Source: Beroe forskalii (Eukaryota > Ctenophora > Nuda > Beroida > Beroidae). Taken from it: a stretch of DNA of 64,000 nucleotides. Location: positions 421,159-485,158 of the forward strand of contig WFMF01000101.1 in assembly GCA_011033025.1 (NCBI GenBank), written 5' to 3'. Of the stretch, positions 715 through 64,000 are shown one piece after another; position 1 is the stretch's first letter; every line of letters begins with the position of its first letter. The notes beneath the pieces are model-generated. The model searched no databases. It was not told the origin of the DNA and worked only from the letters and a program-made list of their open reading frames with translations. The position numbers and the translations under genes are program-made.

Positions 715-717
715 ATA

Positions 718-888
718 TACGGTAAATACACACTTGGGTGTGTAATTACCACATTAATTCCACGAGCTTGCGAGTGGAATTCATGCAATAAATGCACGAG
801 CTTGCGAGTGCATTTATTGGAGTAATTGCACGAGCTTGCGAGTGCAATTACGATGGTAATTTACACACCCAAGTGTGTATTTACTGTA
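718..888. repeat. Three-hairpin cloverleaf palindrome
   Basis: An outer inverted repeat (718-750 with 855-888, about 33 bp, one mismatch and one indel) encloses three hairpins. Stems are 756-763/774-781 (8 bp), 787-797/808-818 (11 bp) and 822-831/842-851 (10 bp). The stems differ in sequence, yet all three loops are GAGCTTGCGA and all share the core CACGAGCTTGCGAGTG. The copy at 29.46 kb has the same layout with one loop substitution. Confidence 0.85.
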
Positions 889-1752
889 TTATTACCCTGC
901 CATATATGAATCATTCAAAGGAGACGGTTTGAAACTTAGAAACATACGGATGAACGTATTGCGTATTCGAACCCAATGTTTTATGAACAATAGCTAGGTA
1001 GGGATGAATTTGTAAAAGGGATGAATTTGTAAAAGTCAACATCACATCGTCATCAGGGTCAATTCAGCGAATACTCAAACTCTCAAAAGACCAAAATATG
1101 ATAGAACCAGCGCCCAGCATTGATGCATACTGTTAGTGTATGATGTAGTGTATGTACTTTACAAAAATTTTGTTATGATCTTTCATCGCCATCAAAAACA
1201 TGAATCATGAAAGTTAAGTAGGTACTCAATCAAAAACAAAACAATTCACTCCACAACCATATAAGAAACGAAAACTGACAGATAGAAATGACGGCGCACA
1301 GTAATAATGCAAATGAAATTGATAAAATGGAGCAATACACCATATATATGGCGCCATAAGTCTGCGTTATATCTCTAACACTAGATAAATATTGAATAAA
1401 CATTGGAACCCAGATGGAGTTATCAAGCGCGTCTAGGTGGCGCCATTCAGGTATATACGATAGCAGTCCTTTAATATCTAATTTATATTTAATCTTGTGT
1501 TGCCCTATAATATCGTTAAGATATATTATCGTATTTTATCTATTGTGCTCCTTATTTACTTTATCTTGTGCTACCGAATGTACCATAACATATATCGTAC
1601 CGAACATATTGTGCTCCTTATCGCTATTTTATCTTGTGTCACAGTATACATGCGGTTAAGAATAAATTACATCGAATCGTTTTTTATATGAAAAGTGCGA
1701 TAACAGATATCATGGGAGGTTATTATTATCCTATTTACCTCCTCACATAGAT

Positions 1753-1930
1753 CAGGGACGTAGCCAGAGGGTATGCAGACTATGCATTGCACACTCTGAA
1801 AAAGTTCCTTGCATAGTCTCAAATTTTGAGAAAATTGCTAATTATAGCTAATTAGGCTTAATTTTACTGCCAGATGCATACCCTAGAAACACTTTGCATA
1901 CCCTGGCCTCGAACCCTAGCTACGTTACTG
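1753..1930. mobile_element. hAT-type MITE nested in copy 1
   Basis: This 178-bp insertion is absent from the second copy of the host element, which shows the empty site. It is bounded by a perfect 8-bp direct repeat, ACATAGAT (1745-1752 and 1931-1938). Its ends are imperfect inverted repeats starting CAGGGACGTAGC on the left and CAGTAACGTAGC read inward from the right. An 8-bp target duplication with CAGGG-CGTA type ends is typical of hAT transposons. It has no coding capacity. Confidence 0.85.
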
Positions 1931-2166
1931 ACATAGATAGCAAATAGGTTAGAATCGTGCGAATGGCCGTTTCAGAAAATTTGTAGTAATTCAACAGTAG
2001 TAATTCAACAGTTGGGAATAGTAATTCAACACTTGAATAGTAATTCAATAGTTGAGGTGTAGTAATTACACACTTGACAGTAATTCAACTGCTGGGTACG
2101 GTGTAATTTCATGATTAATATTGCTCAAAAATTCGAAAAGTAATTACACTGCAGGGTAATAATATG

Positions 2167-11290: not shown

Positions 11291-11432
11291 GGTTTAGTAA
11301 CGAGTAAAAATTGCTAACCGTGATATAACACACGAGGGCCAAAGGCCCGAGTATGTTATATCGCATTAAGAACTGAGGCCGAAGGCCGAGGTTTTTATCG
11401 CAGAGGTTTGCAATTTTTACGAGTTATTAAAT
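11291..11432. repeat. Two-hairpin palindromic element
   Basis: An outer imperfect inverted repeat (about 293-316 with 408-431 of 11 kb, AGTAAAAATTGC against GCAATTTTTAC) encloses two hairpins. The first has stem GATATAACA/TGTTATATC with inner GGGCC-AAA-GGCCC (11,322-11,362). The second is CTGAGGCC-GAA-GGCCGAGG (about 11,374-11,392). The layout matches the three-hairpin units at 0.7, 16.1 and 29.5 kb. Confidence 0.65.
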
Positions 11433-15529: not shown

Positions 15530-16281
15530 AGTCTCACGACAGGTTTAGACCGATTTAAAGGGTAGTACTATATCCGTAGAGTCGTGTTGCCACACGCGCT
15601 TTATATCATGTGTTTGTTATGACACACTGTAATTTAATACCAATTTAAATACACATCTACGCGACCTTTGCTTTTGCGTTACAAAATGTGCATATCTCCG
15701 AGGTTTTTGAGCAAAACTTGATGAAACTTTCAGGATATCTAGAGCTTCATAAAAAGCAACATCTCAGCGAAGTTTAGATTCATTTTTGAGCTCCAGAAGC
15801 GGAGTTAAGACCGAAAAGTTCAGTTTTCAAGTGATAACTTAAAGAAACAAAAGACCGGTTTATTTGCCATATCTCAACTTCTGCGAAGGTCAAAAATGTT
15901 AGCTACTCCAGGATTATATTGGCCATATGTTGCCCGTGATATCCTGAAAATTTGATCAAAATTAGCCAAAAAACGGCTGAGTTATGCGCTTTTGTTATGT
16001 GTAAACAAGCATTTTGCTTATTACCATATAAGGTAATGTGTGCTTGTTGTGTTAGGGGTGTGTCTTGTATACACCGTTCGACTACTATAGTACTTTAGAG
16101 GCTCAAACTCACCGCAGAAATATGATTTAGAGCACTCGGCTCAGCTTCGCTTCGCCTCGCACTCTAAATTATTTAAATGTCTCCAGCTACGCTGTCGACA
16201 TTTAAATATTATATAGAGCCCTGCTCTCGCAGGGCTCTATATTGTCTGCGTGTTCGTCTTACGCCTCTAAAGTACATATAG
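15530..16281. mobile_element. Insertion of about 745 bp inside the minisatellite
   Basis: The satellite text ..AAGCAGTTATAG / TTCAGGTAGG.., continuous in the other higher-order copies, is interrupted here by unrelated AT-rich DNA. TATAG lies at both junctions and may be a 5-bp target duplication. The right end is the three-hairpin unit at 16,085-16,281. There is no coding potential. Confidence 0.65.
16085..16281. repeat. Three-hairpin palindromic element in the satellite insertion
   Basis: Outer inverted repeats CTATAGTACTTTAGAGGC (16,085-16,102) and GCCTCTAAAGTACATATAG (16,263-16,281) enclose three hairpins. Stems are ATTTAGAG/CTCTAAAT (125-132/162-169 of 16.1 kb), ATTTAAATGTC/GACATTTAAAT (171-181/197-207, with inner CAGC-TAC-GCTG), and a perfect 14-bp stem with TCTC loop at 211-242. 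The architecture is the same as at 718-888, but the sequence is unrelated. Confidence 0.8.
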
Positions 16282-29453: not shown

Positions 29454-30734
29454 ATATACGGTAAATACACAGTTGGGTGTGTAATTACCACATTAATTCC
29501 ACGAGCTTGCGAGTGGAATTCATGCAATAAATGCACGAGCTTGCGAGTGCATTTATTGGAGTAATTGCACGAGCTTACGAGTGCAATTACGATGGTAATT
29601 TACAAACCCAAGTGTGTATTTACTGCATTATTACCCTGCCATGTATGCAGCAATCAAAGGAGACGGTTTGAAACTTAGAAACATACGGATGAACGTATTA
29701 CGTATTCGAACCCAATGTTTTATGAACAATAGCTAGGTAGGGATGAATTTGTAAAAGGGATGAATTTGTAAAAGTCAACATCACATCATCATCAGGGTCA
29801 ATTCAGCGAATACTCAAACTCTCAAAAGACCAAAATATGATAGAACCAGCGCCCAGCATTGATGCATACTGTTAGTGTATGACGTAGTGTATGTACTTTA
29901 CAAAAATTTTGTTATGATCTTTCATCGCCATCAAAAACATGAATCATGAAAGTTAAGTAGGTACTCAATCAAAAACAAAACAATTCACTCCACAACCATA
30001 TAAGAAACGAAAACTGACAGATAGAAATGACGGCGCACAGTTATAATGAAAATGAAATTGATAAAATGGAGCAATACACCATATATATGGCGCCATAAGT
30101 CTGCGTTATATCTCTAAGTCTAAAACTAGATAAATATTGAATAAACATTGGAACCCAGATGGAGTTATCAAGCGCGTCTAGGTGGCGCCATTTAGGTGTA
30201 TACGATAGCAGTCCTTTTATCTAATTTATCTTTAATCTTGTGTTGCCCTATGATATCGTTAAGATATATTATCGTATTTTATCTATTGTGCTCCTTATTT
30301 ACTTTATCTTGTGCTACCGAATGTGCCATTAAGAATATATAACATATATCGTACCGAACATATTGTGCTCCTTATCGCTATTTTATCTTGTGTCACAGTA
30401 TACATGCGGTTAAGAATAAATTACATCGAATAGTTTTTTATATGAAAAGTGCGATAACAGATATCATGGGAGCTTATTATTATCCTATTTACATCCTCAC
30501 ATAGATAGCAAATAGGTTAGAATCGTGCGAATGGCCGTTTCAGAAAATTTGTAGTAATTCAACAGTAGTAATTCAACAGTTGGGAATAGTAATTCAACAC
30601 TTGAATAGTAATTCAACAGTTGAGGTATAGTAATTACACACTTGACAGTAATTCAACTGCTGGGTACGGTGGAATTACATGATTAATATTGCTCAAAAAT
30701 TCGAAAAGTAATTACACTGCAGGGTAATAATATG
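29454..30734 (+). mobile_element. Cloverleaf-headed element, copy 2
   Basis: Matches 715-2166 end to end without the nested MITE, so it preserves the empty site. The head (29,457-29,627) keeps the outer inverted repeat and three hairpins; one loop reads GAGCTTACGA. A few small indels (for example extra AAGAATATATAACA near 30,330) separate the copies, indicating moderate age. Confidence 0.88.
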
Positions 30735-35300: not shown

Positions 35301-36438
35301 GCGCTGGCAAACTCATTTTTCAAAACACGAAAATTGGTTCCGCTACGACTTTCAGCACTTCGTGCTGGTACTGCTGGCTCTTTTACTGTGTCTGGACAGC
35401 AGTCCCGGCCCTTCGGGCCGGGACTGCTGCCATCGGCCCTTCGGGCCGATGGCAGCACCCCCGCCCTTTGGGCGGGGTTGCTGATCATTCGGAGATGCCC
35501 TCGGCCCTTCGGGCCGAGGGCATCTGCCCTTCGGGCAGATGCCCTCGTCCAGAGACCCCATAACGTGGCCGCGAGCGCTTGCCAGCGCCCTGATTTGTCA
35601 AGGTTATAATAAGAAGTTAGAATATCAATTTGTCTAGAAATCTTGAATATTCATAGCACTTAGCTGTGGGCCGAAAATGAGTTTACTTTCATTGAATATT
35701 GAATATAGAACCTCAAACCTACCAACTTGAATGAAGTCGTTTCATTTGCTAGATGTATCACTCATGTTCATTAGTTCATCATTGTACTACTTAGCATTTG
35801 AATGATATTCAGTGTTCATGTCAAATCCTCGCTCCCATTGATTACTCAGCTGGGTCACGTGTTCACACCACAGCCTCATCATAACGGTGACAGTTGGAAC
35901 TGCAGTTTGCGCGTCTTTCGCGCGCGGCTTAAGTTTGCGTGGCGTATGCCGTATAGATATATAAATTAAACATGTGTGTACGCCGCGCAAACTTAAGCCG
36001 CGCACACTACAGACGTGCAAACTGCAGTTCAAACTGTTTCTGTTACACCGCACCGCCTCGCGTACAATACATATTGTCCCTCGCGGTTTGTGGCTAAATC
36101 AAAATGTTTGCTGCATCACATAACTCACCTCAAATTAGGTGGTTTCTTCCCTACTCCCGTGGTTATTACACGGGCTGAATGTTAACATGTACATTTTATT
36201 TTAACCTAGTACTAAACCAGTCATTCAACCATTAGCATATATCTACACATTGTTTATTATTTGACCTAGTAACCAACCATCCCTTCCCTCCCATCAGAAA
36301 GAGATAAACGCAGTGAAGTACGTCGAATGCTCGGCTCTAACTCAGAAAGGTCTGAAGCAGGTCTTCGATGAAGCTATCAAAGCCGTGCTGGAGCCTAAGA
36401 GTAACAAGCCAAAGAGAGACCGGTGTTCCCTGTTATAA
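32303..36438 (+). CDS. RAC1: Rac family small GTPase, four exons
   Basis: Exons 32,303-32,485, 32,714-32,830, 33,157-33,294 and 36,298-36,438 join in phase 0 at every junction and give exactly 192 residues, the length of Rac1. Visible motifs are the P-loop GDGAVGKT (10-17), switch I around Thr35 ([11 protein letters not shown]), DTAGQ (57-61, with the catalytic Gln61 at the exon 1 end), the TKLD base-binding motif (115-118), a basic tail and the prenylation box CSLL. Rac proteins switch between GDP and GTP at the plasma membrane and steer actin assembly, adhesion and NADPH oxidase. The hypervariable region before the CAAX box has fewer basic residues than vertebrate Rac1. Intron 3 is 3.0 kb and filled with repeats. 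The symbol reflects best family fit; orthology to Rac1 rather than Rac2/3 cannot be meaningful outside vertebrates. Confidence 0.95.
33733..34104. repeat. Near-perfect 115-bp inverted repeat in Rac intron 3
   Basis: Arms 33,733-33,847 and 33,990-34,104 are reverse complements with about one mismatch, separated by 142 bp. In the pre-mRNA this would be a 115-bp double-stranded hairpin. Such identity implies recent origin or gene conversion. Confidence 0.92.
34150..34905 (+). repeat. 143-144-bp tandem repeat in Rac intron 3
   Basis: About five units, each containing GATAATTACTTTAATTGG, a CGGTACTCAAATTA segment and TTAATGATACCGTTGGAATT. Phase markers at about 34,434, 34,577, 34,721 and 34,865 give the period. 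The first units are the most diverged. Confidence 0.85.
35029..35071 (+). repeat. (GGA)n microsatellite
   Basis: About 14 uninterrupted GGA triplets followed by GTC-TTC-GTC-GTC, in Rac intron 3. Confidence 0.9.
35353..35554. repeat. Six-hairpin CCC-TTC-GGG array in Rac intron 3
   Basis: Successive perfect hairpins: 353-367 (CAGCAC-TTC-GTGCTG), 397-429 (15-bp stem), 429-453 (11 bp), 453-483 (one bulge, loop TTT), 494-524 (14 bp) and 518-544 (12 bp), offsets from 35,000. Five have the core CCC-TT(C/T)-GGG while the outer stems all differ. The last two share the arm GGGCATC and so cannot form together. TCTGGAC (391-397) and GTCCAGA near 35,547 may close the group. The palindromes create open frames in several frames on both strands; these are artefacts. 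Confidence 0.88.
35887..36048. repeat. Inverted-repeat MITE-like element in Rac intron 3
   Basis: Arms of about 60-70 bp (GTGACAGTT...AACTGCAGTTTGC...GGCTTAAGTTTGCG and its complement) around a spacer of about 33 bp. It ends about 250 bp before exon 4. No target duplication is evident. Confidence 0.7.
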
Positions 36439-38883
36439 GACACCGTGTTCGCGCTGTGTATGTATATTATACATATTGTGTATGTATATGTATACACTCC
36501 CTGCAAGTCCCTCTCTGAGGACACCCATCATCTTCATCTCTCATGTGTTTGATAATATATACAATATATATGATACCATTGTTGAGGACGTATTAATTTG
36601 TTACTGAGCTCTCATTACAATATATGACTTATAAAGTGTGTGCGTGTGTGTGTGTCGACATATATCCATTATCCAATTGGTACAGTGTACATACAATTTA
36701 CCTTGTGCTGCCCATGCAATTGGGTACATGAGCTATACATTGCATTTGTACAAATACGTCTAAAGTTGGTCGGTGTCTTTGCATCGTGTAATGGAATCAC
36801 TGCGTTTTCTTACAGCCAACGTTTTTGATATAAATGATAACAATACAACGCTTGTGATGTGGCGGTGATTTTGTTCCGAAAATAACTATGTATTGAACTC
36901 GCTTCAGATTCATCTGAACGTTTCAATTGATTTTTGTGTGTGTGTGGATAATTGATATATAATTATAGTTATTATTAAAGCCAGAGAACTATTTGATTTA
37001 CCACATCACTGAGAATGAAGTGGTGTTTTACATAATGATAATATGAACTATATCCATTTAAAAATTCATAATTGGGGATTCATGACCGAAATAGACACAC
37101 GATTTGTCAAGATCTTAAATATCTTTAAAATATCTCTTAAAGATAATGTTTGTTGTAAGATGTGCACAAAATAGCTGAACTCAAAGTTCGAAGCTGTGCT
37201 TGTTTGCTTGAAAAACGGACTAATGCGATCTGTCAAAAAGTTCGCGAAAAGGTGTTGTATTTTGTATTCTTTGTTAAATTTTCACCAATTTTTACTACAA
37301 TAACACTCAAAGTTTGAACGAACGGTATGATCGTAATATATTTATTTCGCTTTCAGATTACATTCAATATTAAATCCTTCAATCTAGAAACTTTGTATCC
37401 ACTATTCCTTAAGGTTTACGAAAAAGGATTGTACATATTATATCTTCTGCAGTAACCAACTGATATTTCCTGCCATTATTATATCTGGATAGGTTACCCA
37501 GATTAATTAGTGATAGTAGTGGATTACTCCATGATTATATCAGACAACCACGTGGCATTTAGAGTGTGACAATCAGTTAGCAACTTCCTGATGATATAGA
37601 CAATGATAGACAATACTCTCACACAACCATGTGACATTTAGAGTGTGACAATCAGTTAGCAACTTCCTGATGATATAGACAATGATAGACAATACTTTCA
37701 CACAACCATGTGACATGTAGAGTGTGACAATCAGTTAGCAACTTCCTGATGAGATAGACAATACTTTCACACCAGTGCATGAGGTAGCTGGCGTATGTTT
37801 GCATTATAATTGGTTATGATAATAACAATAGGCTTTTGACCTTGTAAAATATATGATATGAGCTACATTCTCTATAATATTAATTATTATTTTATTATCT
37901 ATGTATGATTTTTACAAATCTAAATTTTTATGTTTAGCTTTCAAATAATTGTAATTAAAGCTGTTCATGATTTTCGTTTTATACAAATTGTCTATATAAT
38001 TTTGTAATTAGCCACTCCCCAATAAGTTAGGTGATTGGGTTTGATCAATTATAATATGATACACCTTCTAGTAATTAGTTCCATATAATGATAATAATAT
38101 CTTAAAACTTAATGACCGTTAAAATGCACTTGGTATGTATGTGGGTATGATGCACATTGTCATGACCTCGTCATGGTAGAAGTAACGATTGTTTTAATTG
38201 TAATTTGGTATTTTGATGTATCTAAATCTTATTAGATTGCTGTTTAATTGATTACATGTCAATTATTTTCATGATTGAGATGACTGGATACTGAAGTTCT
38301 TTAAATTTTTAAGATTTCTACTCACTAAAATAATACTAGATTATAAGGTTGGTAGAGTATTGGAAGGGGTTATAATCAGTTGGGCATTAATAACACAAAT
38401 AAAACTTAATAACTTTAAGAGCTGTGCAGCGCCCTCTCACGGGACGGACGTGTACGGATCTCATTGTGATTCACGGTAAGCCGTAGACTGCAAGGGAAGG
38501 TGAACAAAATCCTCTTTAACTTCGTAAAATATTCCTCGGTTGACCATTAAGTTTGAAGTAAGAGTTATAAGCGTATTAAGTGGCCAGTGTGGGGAGAGTA
38601 TGACTCTTGGAGACGTTCAATCATTCACCAGATCTATGATCCACTGTCCTGTATGACAATTGACAAGCCAAATTTGATGTAGGGAAATGTTCATTTAACT
38701 GGTCCAATGTATAATTATCAAACTTCACAGGATGTTAATATTATTGATCTTTTATTGGGAGTAAATTGCCTAATTGGTTATTGCAGCAACATATTGGCTC
38801 AATGTCCATTTTACTTCTATTGAGATTTGAGACGTGTAATTTAATCCTCCAATTAGTACACCAATTGGTCATGTGATTATAAG
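36439..38883. other. Rac 3' UTR and intergenic DNA with an 80-bp tandem repeat
   Basis: No further gene is recognised. At about 37,545-37,772 nearly three copies of an 80-bp unit (ACAACCATGTGACATTTAGA, then GTGTGACAATCAGTTAGCAA) follow each other. The remainder is AT-rich. Confidence 0.6.
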
Positions 38884-39021
38884 TGAAACATTGAGTGATC
38901 TGCAATGTACAATAATCCTTAATAAAGTTTGACCGTCTCACTTCTTTCCTTTTCACTCTTTCTGGCTTTCTTCTTTGTTCTGTTTTATAAGCTGTCCTTA
39001 TTGGACCAGACATCAGATAAT

Positions 39022-39510
39022 ATGTCTCTTCTTCCTACGATAACCATACTTTTCTCTTTCTTCCTGTTCCAGTGTTCTCTGTCTGCTGACACTGTTAATA
39101 TGTGTATCACGGTGAAGAACATCAATGCGTCAGAAAGTGAAGTGGCACACTTGAAGCATATGTTCGATGGGTGCAGAGAAACGGAAACTTGCCATCCTAA
39201 GACAGACGAATTGGAGCTTTATAGTGGATATTTTGTGTTGGCAATTTTAACGTGTGAAGTCCCCACTGCAGCTCCTACTCTTCCCGCCACTACTACACTT
39301 CCCGCCACCTCTCCAAGCCCTCATTCCTGCCTCCTAGACTGGATTCCTGACCTGAAAATTACAGTTCCGAGGGAGGCTGTCTTCGGTGTGTCAGTGGCTG
39401 CTATAACCCTAGTATCCGCTGGGATTATTCTCGCAGCTTTCAGATGTTTTGTTCGTGCCCGGTCTTCCTGGTATGCCCAACGATACCCGCTTGGTGGGAT
39501 AACAGTTTGA
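39022..39510 (+). CDS. Small type I membrane protein with Pro/Thr stalk, copy A
   Basis: A 162-residue frame from the first ATG after a pyrimidine-rich ACCAG site. I do not recognise the family. Visible parts are a signal peptide (LLPTITILFSFFLFQCSLSA), an ectodomain of about 60 residues with several cysteines and NxS site NAS, a Pro/Thr-rich stalk with repeated LPATTT-like units, an SCLLDWIPDL segment, one transmembrane helix (VFGVSVAAITLVSAGIILAA), then a short basic cytoplasmic tail ending YPLGGITV. The tail has no ITAM- or ITIM-like tyrosine motif. AATAAA lies at about 39,609. The paralogue at 61,730-63,779 is almost identical in the membrane and tail part but differs widely in the ectodomain, which suggests a receptor or recognition role; this is inference. 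Confidence 0.75.
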   Translation: MSLLPTITILFSFFLFQCSLSADTVNMCITVKNINASESEVAHLKHMFDGCRETETCHPKTDELELYSGYFVLAILTCEVPTAAPTLPATTTLPATSPSPHSCLLDWIPDLKITVPREAVFGVSVAAITLVSAGIILAAFRCFVRARSSWYAQRYPLGGITV

Positions 39511-41804
39511 CTGGTTACTTACATGTTGTTTTCTGCAGGAGATCAAACTTGAGAAGATACTCTGTTATTTTGTGTACTTCTTATACGACCGCTATTTAGA
39601 TTACTCATGGAATAAAGCTCAATTTATGAACATTGGTTTTTAGAGTACCTTAGAAGGTGTATTTATGTGGGATAAAATTTCGGTGTTTCAAATTTTGGTA
39701 AGTTGAGAATATGGGGATTTTTCCATTCATTACTCTTGTTAACATATGATAATGATATCATTTTGAAACTTCGTGGTGGGTGAAAAAATGAGGATTTTTC
39801 TGAAAAATCCCCAAATTACAACCTCCTAATCCAAAGTCTCATCTATAAAGGTGTATGGGTATATGACAAACATAAATAAATTCTGAATCTAACTTCATCA
39901 AATGTATAGATAAGGGTTTATGAAACGTAATAAGATAAAAGATCTACTTTATGATACGTGTTAACTATTTTGTTTTTGGCTTGTGCCTTAGTACTTCAAT
40001 TTGTTTAATTCACCCGAATTTGAATTTAAAGGTTCTTCCTCAATTTCTTATCGAGAGATTTCAGATTAGTGATCAACTTTATAAATCTCTAACCTCTATT
40101 AAACTAAAAATCATTGTTATATTGTGCAATGCTCATATTCATATAGAAGTATTTGATTTATTATGAACTTATATTAACTGTTTTTGATAAAGGTATTTTC
40201 ATTTGAAAAGGGGTGAGGGGCATTTGGATTATTTTGGAAGAAGTTTTTGTAAGGACCTAGACCTAAGCTTCTTTCGAAAGATTTATCCAGTCGCCGTTGA
40301 AATCCCCCGTTTGAATGCTTGGAGTTTGGTCTCGTAGGGGATATGCTAAATATCATATTGCCATCTTCCTCCTACCAGGGTACATGAACAAATGATCCCG
40401 GAAATAGTTAAATCCCCGAGTGCGCGAGTAAAACCTTCTGAATAGTGAGTGATAATTATTGAATTCTATTGCAGCAGGAGCTCTGTTGAGGTATTGTGAA
40501 TAGTGAGGGGCGGTGAATGCCATTGTACCTTTACACCAGGGGGCCTCTAATGTCTAATGGGCTGAGAAATCTATTCAGCGTGTTGGTTATTAGTCCACAG
40601 CCAATTCCAGTGCTCTTGAACATGAACAAAGCGAATTCATACTCTGGTCTCTGACAATAAATCGTACGTTTATTATAGCATACGCCAAACATCCATGATA
40701 AGTAATATGCCTATGTGCATAATATATTCTGATTATGACCTGAATATTTCTCACAAATATCTTGCTTATGTTGACTGTTGAGTCGCACAGGATTTAAACG
40801 ATTTGCAATGTTTAAGCGGTGAGAAAAGAAATGATTCCAAGATCCAAATTTATTTATTTTTGTCACATTTTCTATGTTCCACTTCCATTAAGATAAGATT
40901 TGTTGGGTTTGCTGCAATCACGTACCTTTTAAAGTAACCCAAATATGCCAAAGGATTGAGTTGTGCCAAAGGATTGAGTTGTGATTACGTAGCTATTGTC
41001 AGTTTTAAGGCTCAGTGCATATGAGTAGAAAAGTAGAAAGTTAGAAATGGGTGGCGACCTCTGACCTGAGTGCGATAGAATGTGCATTAGAAAGAGAGAA
41101 GAGAGTGGTGAGTTCTGTGTAAGCGGAAGTTAAGATAAGAGATACCCTCACAGTCAATGTTAGATCACAAACCATATCAGGTTACCAGTACTGTGTGTGC
41201 GTGTATATTTTATTGACTGACGCACGGTCACTTACAATTACTCATTAGATACTCACTGGCTTTTCTTTCTCAAGATCCATCATCTGATGTAATATTCAAA
41301 GTAATATGTCATCACATGAACCACCAAGTGATATAAGTCCCATTCTAAGGTAATCTTGACTCTTCAATGACCCTTTATCTCATTGTAAATCACCTCTTAT
41401 CTCAATGAATATTTGATACGAGATCATCTTGAGTCAGCTTGAGCCATGAGTCCCTTATAGTTTTGAGCCATATTACGTCAGACTGTATAAACTATGATCT
41501 GTTCCAATGATGGATGAGTAGCATTTATGGTCGCTGATACGGCTAGAGTTTAATAGACTTAGTAGTCTGTGGGATTTCTTTAGCTTACTATGGACCATTA
41601 GAAACTAGGTATACTATAATATGTGATTCATTTTATAGTCTCAATTCTCAAAATAATGCAGTATAAACGTTTCACAATGTACATTACCTACACGTATAAT
41701 ATGTACAATGTGTAAATGAAGTGCTACATGAAGTGAAGACATGATATATTCTATGTTTTCTTCTGAAAATCTCACCCTCCTCCACACTCAGGTCTGTTTA
41801 GGAC
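39511..41804. other. Intergenic within the left arm
   Basis: No gene recognised. The sequence is conserved in the right arm (59,552-61,729) with scattered differences; open frames at 39,951-40,166 and its mirror at 61,306-61,521 are matched but lack motifs. Confidence 0.45.
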
Positions 41805-42416
41805 ATGGCAAACCCGTGGGCGACTGAGTGCCCTGAAGGAACCCTCCTCAGCATCCTCGCCTCGCAAGGCTGTCAAAGTGACGTCATAGTGGATGACGTA
41901 GCAGACAACCCCTCCCTCAAGATAATATCAGCTCTAAACGAGATCTCAGCGCTGTCCTCCCAAATACACGCGGGGGAGCTGGAAGTGCTCCAGCGGAACC
42001 TGCACCGTGACAACAAGGAGCTGGTAGGGGTAGACAGTCTGGCGCAGATAGCAACGCTTGCGGAGGAAGTGGCGCAGACAGTCACCCTCGTCCTAGACAA
42101 CAGGGACTCCCTGCTGGAGCGGATACGAACACCCCACGACCCGGGGAGACTAGTGGTGGAGGCCAGATATCAGACGTACGCAGTGAACACGTTCGAGAAG
42201 CTGGGTCGGGTGTGCACGCAGCTGGCAGGCCACCTCTCCGAGGTGGAGAAGTTCAAGAGGGGTCGGGTATGTGAGGAGAATGTGACAGGGTGTGTTAGAC
42301 AGATCACGGAGCTAGCAGCCGGGCTGCAGACTTTGTATGATAACCTCAGTGCGCAGCACAGGGGGCTGGGGCAGGGCAGGGAAGCCGTGTCACAGTACAC
42401 AGCCCTGCAGATATGA
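41805..42416 (+). CDS. HAUS2: HAUS2-like augmin subunit, copy A
   Basis: Single-exon frame of 203 residues. It resembles augmin subunit 2: N-terminal NPW, a long helical region (ISALNEISALSSQIHAGELE onward), the central LLERIRTPHDP...VEARYQTYAVN block that matches the family's hallmark region, and a C-terminal coiled coil. Vertebrate HAUS2 is about 235 residues. Augmin recruits gamma-tubulin to spindle microtubules to nucleate branches. The ATG follows CTCCACACTCAG|GTCTGTTTAGGAC, an acceptor-like site. AATAAA lies at about 42,469. A second copy in the right arm differs in only a few residues near the C-terminus but at many silent positions. Confidence 0.75.
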   Translation: MANPWATECPEGTLLSILASQGCQSDVIVDDVADNPSLKIISALNEISALSSQIHAGELEVLQRNLHRDNKELVGVDSLAQIATLAEEVAQTVTLVLDNRDSLLERIRTPHDPGRLVVEARYQTYAVNTFEKLGRVCTQLAGHLSEVEKFKRGRVCEENVTGCVRQITELAAGLQTLYDNLSAQHRGLGQGREAVSQYTALQI

Positions 42417-43813
<1,397 letters not shown>

Positions 43814-58144: not shown

Positions 58145-58939
58145 ATATTTCATGCATTTGCCGATATTAAATTCTAAGATTTTAGTAACGTTACATTCTA
58201 AGATTTACTTTACATTTTTGTTGACTGGTATTCTTTACCAGCTCACTACGATAGACAAATCTTAGATCACAAAATATTTGAAACGCTCAAAGCATGCTTC
58301 ACATAACCCATAGCAGTCAGCTAAATCTGTATCAGATTTTGGCAGGACAAACTTGTATTTTAAAACAGTAAGATTTATATTCAGTATCATAATCATTGAG
58401 AAAGGTACAGTAAAATATTAAATCATTTCTATTCTCAACTTCTCTGAGCAAGGCACATGATTACAGGTGATTGTCAGATAGAGGATAGAACGTACAGTAT
58501 CACATTGAGAAGGGGCGGGACGATAACGTCATCAACATTCTATCACTCGCAGTAAATTGATATTGAAAGATAACGAATTTTTGGAGTAAAGCAGTGAAAA
58601 ACTAGCAAATTAATGATTTAATGCTATAAAAATGTTTCAATTTGAAACAAATTTAAACACCGTATATAATCATGAACTTTTTAAGTAGTGCAATGAAAAC
58701 TTCAAATTAAAGATATCATAAATTTCATTTATATACAAACTATTGAAATATATTATGTACATAATTCATCATAATATCATAAATACGAAGACTATAACGC
58801 GTCAGAGGTTTTCACTGTCAAATTCGGTAAGATACTAATTTGAAGTAGTACCAATAAAAAGATGCCCTGAATTGGCCCACAGCATTTAATTGCAATGTAA
58901 TTAGAATATAAAAGTCCACTGAATATTGAATAACACCCA

Positions 58940-59551
58940 TCATATCTGCAGGGCTGTGTACTGTGATGTGGGTGCCCTGCCCTGCCCCAGGCCCCTGTGC
59001 TGCGCACTGAGGTTATCATACAAAGTCTGCAGCCCGGCTGCTAGCTCCGTGATCTGTCTAACACACCCTGTCACATTCTCCTCACACACCCGACCCCTCT
59101 TGAACTTCTCCACCTCGGAGAGGTGCCCTGCTAGCTGCGTGCACACTCGACCCAGCTTCTCGAAGGTGTTCACTGCATATGTCTGGTATCTGGCTTCTAC
59201 TACCAGTCTCCCTGGGTCATGGGGTGTTCTGATCCGCTCCAGCAGGGAGTCCCTGTTGTCTAGGACGAGAGTGACTGTCTGCGCCACTTCCTCCGCAAGC
59301 GTTGCTATCTGCGCCAGACTGTCTACCCCTACCAACTCCTTGTTGTCACGGTGCAGGTTCCGCTGGAGCACTTCCAGCTCCCCTGCGTGTATTTGGGAGG
59401 AGAGCGCTGAGATCTCGTTTAGAGCTGATATTATCTTGAGGGAGGGATTGTCAGCTACGTCATCTACGATAACGTCACTCTGACAGCCTTGCGAGGCAAG
59501 GATACTCAGGAGGGTTCCTTCAGGGCACTCAGTGGCCCACGGGTTTGCCAT
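58940..59551 (-). CDS. HAUS2: HAUS2-like augmin subunit, copy B
   Basis: Intact 203-residue frame. It matches copy A except for a short stretch near the C-terminus (GQGRAPTSQ against GQGREAVSQ). In the 36 codons covering DPGRLVVEARYQTYAV to HLSE I count 12 nucleotide differences, all silent, so selection has kept the protein. Regulatory marks have changed: the acceptor-like CTCAG before the ATG reads CTGAG here, and the downstream AATAAA has become ATTAAA. Both copies could be expressed, or these could be very divergent haplotypes. Confidence 0.75.
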   Translation of the reverse strand: MANPWATECPEGTLLSILASQGCQSDVIVDDVADNPSLKIISALNEISALSSQIHAGELEVLQRNLHRDNKELVGVDSLAQIATLAEEVAQTVTLVLDNRDSLLERIRTPHDPGRLVVEARYQTYAVNTFEKLGRVCTQLAGHLSEVEKFKRGRVCEENVTGCVRQITELAAGLQTLYDNLSAQHRGLGQGRAPTSQYTALQI

Positions 59552-61729
59552 GTCCTACACAAGCCTCAGTGTGGAGATGGGTGAGATTAACATAAGAAAA
59601 CATCTACAAATTGAAACACATCGATGTAAGTCTTTATCAATAGTTTCATGGGTATAAAGGTATAAATCCACTAGAGCTTGAGTACCTTGTGCATTTAAAC
59701 TTCAACACACTCGTAAGAATACATCTAGAATATCATGTCTCCACTTCATGTATCACTTCATTTACGCATTGTACATTTTACGTGTAGGTAATATGCAATG
59801 TACATTGTGAAACGTGTATACTGCATTATTTTGAGAATTGAGACTATAAAATGAATCACATATAGTATACCTCGTTTCTATTGCTCCATAGTAAGCGAAA
59901 GAAATCCCACAGACTGCTAAGTCTATTACTCTATTAAACTCTAACCGTATCAGCGATCATAAATGCTACTCATCCTTCATTGGAACAGATCATAGTTTAT
60001 ACAGTCTGACGTAATATGGCTCATAACTATAAGGGACTGATGGCTCAAGCTGACTCAAGATGACTTCGTAACAAATATTCATTGGGATATGAAGTGATTT
60101 ACAATTCAAGATAAAGGGTAATTGAAGTCGAGATTACCTTAGAAGGAGACTTACATAACTTGGTACTTCATACGTGATGACACATTACTTTGAATATTAC
60201 ATCAGATGATGGATCTTGAGAAAGAAAAGCCAGTGAGTATCTAATGAGTAATTGTAAGTGACCGTGCGTCAGTCAATAAAATATACACGCACACAGTACT
60301 GTAACATGATATGGTTTGTGATCTAACATTGACTGTGAGGGTATCTCTTATCTTAACTTCCGCTTACACAGCACTCACTGCTCTCTTCTTTCTGATAATA
60401 CACATTCTATCGCACTCAGGTCAGAGGTCGCCACCCATTTTCAACTTTCTCCTTTTCTACTCATATATGCACTGAGCCTTAAAACTGACAATAACTACGT
60501 AGGAAGTGAGTGGTTCCAGTGAGTAATCACAACTCAATCCTTTGGCATATTTGGGTTACTTTAAAAGGTACGTGATTGCGGCAACACCTACAAATCTTAT
60601 CTTTATGGAAGTGGAATCATTTCTTTACTCGCCGCTTAAACATTGCAAATCGTTTAAATCCTGTGCGACTCAACAGTCAACATAAGCAAGATATTTGTGA
60701 GAAATATTCATATTGTGATATATTGTGATATATTATGCACATAAGCATATCATTATGGATGTTTGGCGTATGCTATAATAAACGTACGATTTATTGTCAG
60801 AGACCAGAGTATGAATTCGCTTTGTTCATGTTCAAGAGCACTGGAATTGGCTGTGGACTAATAACCAACACGCTGAATAGATTTCTCAGCCCATTAGACA
60901 TAAGAGGCCCCCTGATGTAAAGGTACAATGGCATTCACCGCCCCTCACTATTCACAATGCCTCAACAGAGCCCCTGCTGCAATAGAATTCAATAATTATC
61001 ACTATTCAGAAGGTTTTACTCGCGCACTCGGGGATTTAACTATTTCCGGAATCATTTGTTCATGTACCCTGGTAGGAGGTAGATTGCAATATGATATTAA
61101 ACATATTCAACCCTACGAGACCCCTCATCCCCTACGAGACCAAACTCCAAGCATTCAAACGGGGGATTTCAACGGCGACTGGATAAATCTTTCCAAAGAA
61201 GATTGATAGGTCTAGGTCCTTACAAAAACTTCTGCCAAAAGAATCCAAATGCTCCTCACCCCTTTTCAAATGAAAATACCTTTATCAAAAACAGTTAATA
61301 TAAGTTCATAATAAATCAAATACTTCTATATGAATATGAGCATTGCACGATATAAAAATGATTTTTAGTTTAATAGAGGTTAGAGATTTATAAAGTTGAT
61401 CACTAATCTGAAATCTCTCGATAAGAAATTGAGGAAGAACCTTTAAACTTAAATTCGGGCAACTTAAACAAATTGAAGTATTAAGGCACAAGCCAAAAAC
61501 AAAATAGCTAACACGTATCATAAAGTAGATCTTTTATCTTATTACGTTTCATAAACCCTTTTTTATACATTTGATGAAGTTAGTTAGTTAGATACTCTAA
61601 AAACAATGTTTATAAATTGAGCTATATTCCATGAGTAGTCCAAATAGCGGTAGCATAAAAAAGTACACAAAATAACAGAGTATCTTCTCAAGTTTGATCT
61701 CCTGCAGAAAGGCACATGTAAGTAACCAA
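59552..61729. other. Intergenic within the right arm
   Basis: Mirror of 39,511-41,804 with substitutions and short indels. No gene recognised. Confidence 0.45.
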
Positions 61730-63779
61730 TCAAACTGTTATCCCACCAAGCGGGTATCGTTGGGCATACCAGGAAGACCGGGCACGAACAAAACATCTGA
61801 AAGCTGCGAGAATAATCCCAGCGGATACGAGGGTTATTGCAGCCACTGACACACCAAAGACAGCCTCTCTGGGAACTGTAATGTTCAGGTCAGGAATCCA
61901 GTCTAGGAGGCAGGAATGAGGGCTTGGAGAGGTGGTGGGAACAGTAGGAGTGGCGGGAACAGTAGGAGCTGCAGTGGGGACTTCACACGTGTAAATCGCC
62001 TGTACAAAATATCCACTACTTAGTTTTATTTCTCTTGTCTGGGGATGGCAGGTTGCGTTTTCTGTGCACCATCCATCGAGCTTAAGTTTCAAGGTGTTTG
62101 GTGGGCATATTCTGCCCAAACTCGAAATTAAATAAACTTTACACAAAAATGCAAATAGTTAGCGGCATCAATTTCTCAGTAGCTTCCTAAATATGGCCCA
62201 TTTGAAGGTAGCTCAATTGGCAATCCCCGAGAGTGTTTAGATTTCAGAATATGAAAACACCACTTTTTTGGGCAAATTTGCCTACCAAATTTGCTTGAAT
62301 TTGGGTTGGAGTAAATGCTGCCCAATTGGGCAAAATAATTCTGTGGGCAAGATTTGCCCAACTGTAGTGGGTGAAAAGTGTCCACTCCAAAAACTTTTGG
62401 GCAAATTTCACCCAATTCTTGGGCAAACTGTGACCAATTCTTGGGCAGATCATGTCCAATCCTTGGGTGAATTTGTCCAATTGATTGGGCGCATTATGCC
62501 CATTTCCCTAATACCTCAGAATATGTCTCAAATAATTGGCCAGTAATGTCAAAAGTTGGGAAATGACATGGAAAACGTCACAATTCAATAGATTTAACCC
62601 GTTGCATTTTTAAACAATTTTATGGCATTTGTCACTTTTCTAGCGTTTGATTTGAATTCTCAATTAATTGTTCAACTCTTATCAAGACAGTTCAAGAAGC
62701 AAGGGGTTACTGAAATTCATAAAAGCATTGAAATTGCCTTTGAAGGCATGTAAAATGTGGCGGTCTTTAAATTTGTATACCTAACATAGAAATTAGCATA
62801 AATCCGAATCATGGAGCTACCAAAGAAGTTCGATGCTCAGCCAGCAGATTTTTTAGTCAAGGGAAGTAGAATCGATAATATGCATGAGATTTATGGGGTG
62901 TGGATCGTATCTCATCTGAAGGAGTTCTGCGTTTAATTCAAATATCAACCATAGATGATCATGAACATGAAGTTTTTCACTTTATTAGAACATCCATCAA
63001 AGTGTGTGATATATTTTTCAAAGAAATTTCACTTTTCTTCTCATAAGTCCATAATGATTTAAAAAATGGAGAAACATCGTTGCAATCTATGGAAATACAC
63101 CTTTGAAGTGATTTGGGCAAATAATACCCAAGCAATGAAATTGGATATAAATCGCCCAATTATTTGGGGCACAAATGTCCAAATTCAGCATGGGTAAATA
63201 CAGCAAACCTTCATCAGAATATCTCTGTATTCTTCCCAATTTTTATCCAAAAATTTTTGTTGTGAGTTTAAAGAACAATTTCTAAACATATCAGCATGCT
63301 TTTAAGTTGCAATTTGAGTAATAAGATGTTCAGAAAATACAAAAGCTAAATTTGGTAAAAAATGAGTTAGGCGAATTCTGCCCAATGGGCAGTTTTGCCC
63401 AATACAGTATCACCCATAAAAGTGACCAACAGAGACTCAAAATGAAATATTGTAGCTCCATACTTTCCAATATGCCACCAAATTCGGTTGTAACATAATG
63501 TTTAGATACCTTGTTCTATATTTTTTCCTGTTTTTTAACCTCTATCATGATTTATCTTTCTGATATACGAACTTAAAGATTGGGCAAAGTTTACCCACCA
63601 AACACTTTACGTAAGTTTAAAAGCCAAACACTTTAAGTGTTAAGTTTCAAGGATGCCATATCACTTTCTGACGCATTGATGTTTTTCGTCGTGATGCACA
63701 CCTTAACAGTGTCAGCAGACAGGGAACACTGGAACAGGAAGAAAGGGAAAAGTATGGTTATCGTAGGAAGAAGAGACAT
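61730..63779 (-). pseudogene. Type I membrane protein, copy B, interrupted by an element
   Basis: The 5' part (63,779-63,633) encodes the signal peptide and first ectodomain residues, then runs into a stop within inserted DNA. The 3' part (62,094-61,730) continues the ectodomain, Pro/Thr stalk, transmembrane helix and tail. The break falls between SDMASLKL and KLDGWCTEN at a 13-bp direct repeat; without the insertion the frame would be continuous. The stalk uses VPATPT-like units. The membrane/tail part differs from copy A at one residue (Lys to Asn) in about 60, while the ectodomain differs at many. The AATAAA of copy A reads AATATA here. It is probably a recent pseudogene unless the insertion is spliced out. 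Confidence 0.75.
62095..63639. mobile_element. 1.5-kb GGGCAAA-repeat element inserted in copy B
   Basis: Flanked by the 13-bp direct repeat TTAAGTTTCAAGG (62,082-62,094 and 63,640-63,652), a single copy in a related form in the left arm. Near its ends are inverted repeats TGTTTGGTGGGCATATTC and, from the right, TGTTTGGTGGGTAAAC, the right one set in by about 36 bp with a second CCAAACACTTTA. The first and last thirds carry dozens of TTGGGCAAA/TTTGCCCAA motifs in both orientations. No transposase visible and no superfamily assigned. Confidence 0.78.
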
Positions 63780-63912
63780 ATTATCTGATGTCTGGTCCAA
63801 TAAGGACAGCTAATAAAACAGAACCAAGAAGAACGCCAGAAAGAGTGAAAAGAAAGAAGTGAGACTGTCAAACTTTTTGGATTATTGTACATTGCAAATC
63901 ACTCAATGTTTC

Positions 63913-64000
63913 CTTTTTCCAAAAAAATTTTATTAAAAATTTAAATAAAAAAAAGGGGCCAAAATTTTGGAGAACCAATTGGGGATAAAAAATTTGGTTT
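63913..64000. other. Low-complexity end, possibly poor-quality sequence
   Basis: Runs of A, T and G with doubled letters replace the expected continuation of the arm. CCAATTGG-like remnants of the left-arm flank are still visible. It may be a contig edge with sequencing errors. Confidence 0.4.

Follow-up and report, generated by a model that had tools for sequence, protein, structure and literature searches.

A cloverleaf palindrome with tandem G.A tips at the left end of a non-autonomous element in Beroe forskalii: a possible folded recognition signal

Why should one end of a small mobile element carry several hairpins that differ in their stems and agree in their tips? The question is raised by a 64,000-nucleotide stretch of the Beroe forskalii genome (assembly GCA_011033025.1, contig WFMF01000101.1, positions 421,159 to 485,158, forward strand), which was analysed over its whole length and is called the window here. 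A preliminary description had reported three perfect hairpins of 8, 11, and 10 bp with the common loop GAGCTTGCGA inside an outer 33-bp inverted repeat. The hairpins and the outer repeat are indeed present, with small corrections: the stems of 8 and 10 bp stand, the remaining one measures 12 bp (Table 1), and the outer inverted repeat is scored at 29 nt with 97% identity (717-745/861-889) and is extended by the fold. The common loop is also there, although it is better read as facing G.A mismatches followed by a C-TT-G tip. GAGCTTGCGA occurs five times in the window compared to 0.06 expected occurrences, and the cloverleaf of copy 1 is predicted to fold as a single strand with -60.6 kcal/mol (z -13.7), a value equalled by none of 200 shuffled sequences; chance, already discounted in the preliminary description, is rejected as an origin by the loop count and by the shuffles. 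The second copy at 29.46 kb keeps the structure as claimed, being 96-98% identical to copy 1 outside a 176-bp insert of the latter and folding too (-52.2 kcal/mol, z -11.1).

Table 1. Positions of the palindromes and of the element that carries the cloverleaf, numbered from the first base of the window
Feature	Position	Strand	Basis or remark
Non-autonomous element, family A, copy 1	717..2163	+	ends from ~50 paired copies and three empty-site comparisons
Left-end cloverleaf, outer stem and three hairpins	717..888	+	inverted-repeat scan, fold, body junction 172 bp in
Hairpin 1, stem AATTCCAC/GTGGAATT	756..781	+	hairpin scan; 756-763/774-781, 8 bp
Hairpin 2, stem CAATAAATGCAC/GTGCATTTATTG, centre of the whole palindrome	786..819	+	786-797/808-819, 12 bp
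Hairpin 3, stem GTAATTGCAC/GTGCAATTAC	822..851	+	hairpin scan; 822-831/842-851, 10 bp
Inner inverted motif TTATTACCCTGC, junction of cloverleaf and body	889..900	+	complementary to the right terminus
Right end, direct repeats of ~35 bp (GTAATTCAACA...), terminus GCAGGGTAATAAT	1984..2163	+	copy comparison, genome patterns
Family E palindrome, outer stem and two hairpins	11294..11430	+	-31.4 kcal/mol, z -8.1
Family A element, copy 2, cloverleaf at its left end	29456..30731	+	1276 bp; copy alignment

The cloverleaf marks one end of a non-autonomous element, as had been proposed. The flanks diverge just outside ATACGG in the copies read. Copy 1 is 1447 bp long, or ~1.27 kb without the unrelated 176-bp insert at ~1753-1928. 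At this family A copy, the junctions with the host read ...GGTAAT|ATACGG and AATAAT|ATGAGC, and the right end at 2151-2162, GCAGGGTAATAA, complements the inner motif. Allowing up to one mismatch, there are 193 matches to the left-end pattern and 205 to the right-end pattern in the 216-Mb genome; GAGCTTGCGA has 740 genome matches vs. 73 for the reversed control. In the copies read, the body begins with TTATTACCCTGC, mostly 172 bp from the left end. Among 20 loci, alignments within the first ~280 bp are 92%-100% identical to the window copy, with the exceptions of one copy in locus L064 (86%) and of L072 (88%), and stretches reaching or lying inside the body mostly have 82%-91% identity (93% in L071, an overall close copy). 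Since bodies of other kinds stand behind the cloverleaf in L061 and L076, cloverleaf and body can, judging by these two loci, be separate modules. In L076 (144-430), a shortened family A cloverleaf is joined to the body of another family, D (L088), which is possibly a module swap.

Where and how the element joins its target was read from the flanks of 40 paired copies, kept after removing pairs whose flank is another element end. Their consensus is AATTAT|element|ANNNNTWA, with T as the left-flank base in 40/40 and A as the right-flank base in 37/40 copies. At three empty sites, the joined flanks match uninterrupted units of the surrounding tandem repeat (L026), a repeat that is also present in L026 (L045), and a diverged (82%) repeat (L068), respectively. 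All three place the insertion between T and A, which fits both no target duplication and a duplication of TA. A duplication of 5-8 bp was rejected, as the longest common flank string of the 40 pairs has a mean of 4.85 vs. 4.58 in shuffled pairs, with 7/200 shuffles reaching the observed mean. Six of 89 right ends run into another copy (three tandem, three inverted); in base samples partly chosen by exact patterns, A follows 76 of the remaining 83 right ends and G, T, or C the other 7, while the element's first A is constant in 75/75 left ends. The flank bases thus lean towards zero duplication over a TA duplication. Some head-to-tail copies have one and the same junction, GGGTAATAAT|ATACGG (L019, L029, L061, L064; near-identical in L040). 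The two large copies in L061 are 95.6% identical, and an inner copy in L063 is without its right terminus.

These junctions bear on a rather unlikely reading in which the element is derived from a TA-inserting DDE transposon, with its end repeats of ~34-35 bp acting as duplex transposase sites and the palindromes being only paired half-sites. TA, the Tc1/mariner-type duplication, is readable at all three empty sites, GTAATTNNAC-like motifs were seen by eye at both ends, and the arms of the family A cloverleaf, TA-CGGT.../...ACTG-TA, which we take to be Tc1/mariner-like, were counted in favour of this derivation. However, the real ends have no matching terminal inverted repeats of the Tc1/mariner kind (ATACGGTAAATAC vs. 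ATTATTACCCTGC), the seven non-A right flanks, in that partly pattern-chosen sample, contrast with the constant first A of the element, and duplex dimer sites would not need the variable spacing of CGAG boxes with mostly self-complementary inserts described below.

The proposal that different stems share one loop is not supported within family A. Nearly all exact-loop units carry the same three stems, which come from one founder with compensatory changes nearly absent, and this is largely the situation that the preliminary description had named as speaking against it. Only 16 + 5 exact-loop units deviate next to the loop, several of them by one unpaired change common to a subfamily, and one subfamily spread despite a broken pair in hairpin 3. 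In 34 distinct cloverleaves, taken from loci that had in part been selected by the exact loop and with the label hairpin 1 covering part of its stem, we counted over all stems 119 single changes (95 broken pairs, 24 G.T) vs. four paired double changes (two of them Watson-Crick), along with one unpaired double change, so a covariation argument purely within family A was rejected. The older relatives L056, L057, and L080 (the last retained solely for its family-like context) have AATCCCA/TGGGATT in place of the family's AATTCCA/TGGAATT, and L058 is half changed between the two. A search for the stem AATCCCAC...GTGGGATT found one place, L080 (both strands counted), vs. 5 + 5 matches of the reversed control, and thus no enrichment.

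Scanning the sequence for CTCG...CTCG surfaced other palindromes with the same tip. Their common module consists of a variable arm, the block CAC GA G / C GA GTG, and a short tip, and the arms differ from one palindrome to the next while pairing with each other. One strand reads C-GA-G ... C-GA-G, giving two facing G.A mismatches that lead into a short stem and the tip; the CGAG boxes are variably spaced around mostly self-complementary inserts. In such a CGAG/CGAG block the G.A pairs would be sheared, and DNA hairpins of the GCGNAGC type can be unusually stable. In the genome, CACTCGGCTWCGCCTCGTG has 540 matches vs. 0 in the control, and ACGAGG-N4-14-CCGAGT has 3867 vs. 156 when reversed. Among the first 100 sites listed, there are 64 GNA or GNNA loops, 12 GAGCAGGC, and 8 GCGTGC, the latter resembling the GCTTGC of family A. 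A motif-free scan of the window found eight hairpins with a symmetric 2x2 internal loop, six of which are GA/GA (five in family A and a new one at 16170-16208); five shuffled windows contained nine such hairpins in all, one of them GA/GA. Among the fetched loci, which were partly motif-chosen, 23/41 distinct hairpins are GA/GA. At 16126-16242 of the window, three different hairpins stand in a row, one of them with a TC/TC (GA/GA) loop and a TAC (GTA) tip. A scan of viral contigs returned four stretches without long matching arms, which were taken as unrelated.

Tandem G.A and GNA tips can be stable in RNA too, and the hairpins might act in a transcript, e.g. in silencing or stability. We consider this very improbable: the fold coincides with the element ends, GNNA (not only GNRA) and C-TT-G tips fit DNA better, and a known Rfam RNA was rejected, with no match in the window at gathering scores.

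The plan of an outer stem plus hairpins recurs with other stems in families B (L101), C (L089), and D (L153), of which B and C are related. Their predicted folds reach -69.6 kcal/mol (z -16.4), -66.8 kcal/mol (z -15.3), and -54.2 kcal/mol (z -12.1), respectively; the best fold of C is one long hairpin, not a cloverleaf, and several B and D hairpins have a bulged base. Like family A, the B and D ends begin with ATACG, behind a TWAT-like flank. B and C can be aligned, and between L101 and L089 (leaving out a one-base bulge, and with the hairpin 2 gap placed by hand) 5/27 hairpin pairs differ, all of them on both sides and none on one side only; the rows L081, L085, and L090 of the same alignment have unpaired changes or indels. 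Across families, the idea of different stems with matching arms and one tip therefore holds, in contrast to family A. The check suggested along with this idea, whether the flanking arms are complementary, also came out in its favour. At 51 sites, from nine contigs and 40 stretches around places among the first 100 listed of the 3867, 6.71/10 flanking positions are paired vs. 3.60 with partners shuffled (highest of 500 shuffles, 4.29), and for 18 arm clusters the values are 5.39 vs. 3.27 (highest shuffle, 4.44); some of the 51 sites are chance matches without arms. A run of at least six unbroken pairs directly adjoins the motif in only 11/51 sites and 1/18 clusters, because a mismatch or bulge is common at this position. 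In family E, tandem G.A internal loops are found in the outer stem as well as in both hairpins, so the block is more than a loop and forms a module within helices. As other families build the same fold from different stems around the same tip, a role of the folded shape, in addition to that of the sequence, is suggested.

A further question is how these palindromes arose. The ends are partly identical to their own reverse complements (79% in family A, 74% in window copy 2; 79% in B; 85% in C; 77%-79% in D), and the earlier statement that the three stems are unrelated to each other does not wholly stand, since with this symmetry of the whole end hairpins 1 and 3 are mirror relatives around hairpin 2. 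Fold-back copying around this middle hairpin could make such an end in one step. In L140, two family E copies together make up a palindrome of 266 bp with a mismatch-free fold, either a genuine structure or an artefact of assembly. Given this palindrome and the mirror symmetry, fold-back copying probably built the cloverleaf, with the local pairing kept afterwards; the local hairpins appear to be kept because the stems of A are fully paired though the larger mirror has decayed to 79%. The preliminary description had offered a templating process that creates palindromes as an alternative to selected structure, and a fold-back origin gains support. In its pure form, in which the mini-hairpin tip would be a snap-back primer or template-switch point yielding inverted copies of flanks, with stems differing since the flanks differ and the fold being without function, templating seems distinctly unlikely to us. 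The whole-end symmetry of 74%-85% in A-D and the mismatch-free family E palindrome are in line with it, and so are GC-rich hairpin arrays at 35.4 kb with one tip and different stems. There, at 35390-35555, five GC-rich hairpins stand in a row, the last two overlapping, with four GCCC-TTC-GGGC tips and one GCCC-TTT-GGGC; the tip CGGCCCTTCGGGCCG occurs 597 times in the genome vs. 0 reversed. Yet the pieces lie at fixed places of elements with fixed ends, perfect templating would lose the constant CGAG/CGAG mismatch block, the local hairpins of A stay paired while the larger palindrome decayed, and hardly any recent correction is visible among young copies of family A.

We favour, at a probability of about 0.42, the reading of the cloverleaf as the structured left end of a mobile element whose fold is read by a shared enzyme. 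The folded DNA, extruded or single-stranded during replication, would be the recognition signal, and the enzyme, perhaps rolling-circle-like or recombinase-like, would be supplied by an autonomous partner. It would read the constant part, i.e. the tandem G.A internal loop and the tight tip, and the arms would need only to pair. The end would have been built by fold-back copying around hairpin 2, and each local hairpin would then have been kept by selection or by occasional arm-to-arm correction. Joining would be most like rolling-circle or other single-strand transposition, because duplication is absent or minimal, the target resembles the right end, and tandem joints occur. A wider view, which we regard as doubtful, is that eukaryotic transposition can read a DNA shape, consisting of a G.A loop and a GNA/GNNA or C-NN-G tip on paired variable arms, as a reusable module in single-stranded or extruded DNA, with cloverleaf arrays at the ends of several families. 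Should the fold prove to be the signal, the cloverleaf would represent a eukaryotic chromosomal transposon end that is recognised by its shape. Natural compensatory variants would then be at hand for testing DNA secondary structure in vivo, and other genomes could be searched for related elements by means of the tandem-G.A block. If fold-back copying made the palindromes, they would represent a series of such events of different ages.

Several known systems resemble family A in part. IS200/IS605-type elements have subterminal hairpins, no duplication, and a flank and element end that are alike; these traits are similar here, where no enzyme was found, whereas the cloverleaf is much larger and the host eukaryotic. 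Integron attC sites are recognised as a folded single strand and carry constant structural marks and extrahelical bases on variable arms, which may be an analogous principle, although attC is bacterial and differs in scale and context. AAV and other parvoviruses have a T- or cloverleaf-shaped palindrome at the DNA end. Family A shares such a palindrome, but it is chromosomal, has it at one end, and no viral genes were seen, so that the likeness to viral terminal hairpins is best regarded as an analogy. Angel-type and foldback MITEs are near-palindromic non-autonomous elements able to fold; the constant tandem-G.A tip, the variable stems, the several hairpins, and the missing terminal inverted repeat set the present element apart. 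Foldback elements with long palindromic repeats at both ends were rejected as well, the cloverleaf being confined to the left and the right end being a direct-repeat array. Helitrons insert between A and T and have the termini 5' TC and 3' CTRR, in contrast to the T|A insertion and the ends ATACGG and AATAAT found here. In the literature searched, which was mainly open-access, we found no account of transposon ends that combine variable stems with a constant tandem-G.A tip. Helentron/HINE/DINE-1 elements, in the available portions of two accounts (PMC4067079, PMC7492417), have an AT-rich target, internal tandem repeats, inverted subterminal motifs, and end palindromes. Family A shares the AT-rich target, the internal tandem repeats, and the absence of a clear duplication, and its inverted motif and palindrome may be counterparts of theirs, but, going by the same portions, those elements prefer T-T insertion and their 3' palindrome is small, compared to T|A and a 172-bp cloverleaf here; the T-T rule was rejected on the right-flank A in 37/40 and 76/83 cases. 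The Helentron subterminal inverted repeats of 11-15 bp may have a counterpart in the 12-bp inverted pair of TTATTACCCTGC, although its left copy stands behind the cloverleaf, at a distance of 172 bp from the end. Replitrons, in the accessible part of their description (PMC10741241), have short terminal direct repeats, 2-8 bp duplications, and an HUH enzyme; no such duplication is clear in the family A flanks except for the possible TA.

A partner enzyme was sought with profiles and by translation. Helitron_like_N has 20 matches in the genome, none tied to cloverleaf ends, and no shared ends were seen in five stretches upstream of such matches; in one of the five there is a palindrome of CGAG hairpins, perhaps no more than an insertion at that place. 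The Viral_Rep profile had 0 matches, and the controls were likewise without a match. The long copies in L060, L062, and L063 were rejected as autonomous, having 0, 2, and 5 stop-to-stop frames of at least 90 aa, in which no enzyme was recognised by eye. Seven loci were translated, and two pieces scanned against Pfam gave no match. In L104, a GC-rich palindrome of several hairpins, with CGAG blocks, occupies 930-1230; it follows a coding-looking stretch and lies upstream of a Helitron_like_N match by ~1.8-2.1 kb. The second Helitron copy, on contig C847, did not align as an empty site for this palindrome. Finally, the window contains a large inverted duplication (38881-43215 and 58145-63915, 89%-94% identical in pieces), each side of which encodes a near-identical 203-aa frame; the one that was scanned matches HAUS2.
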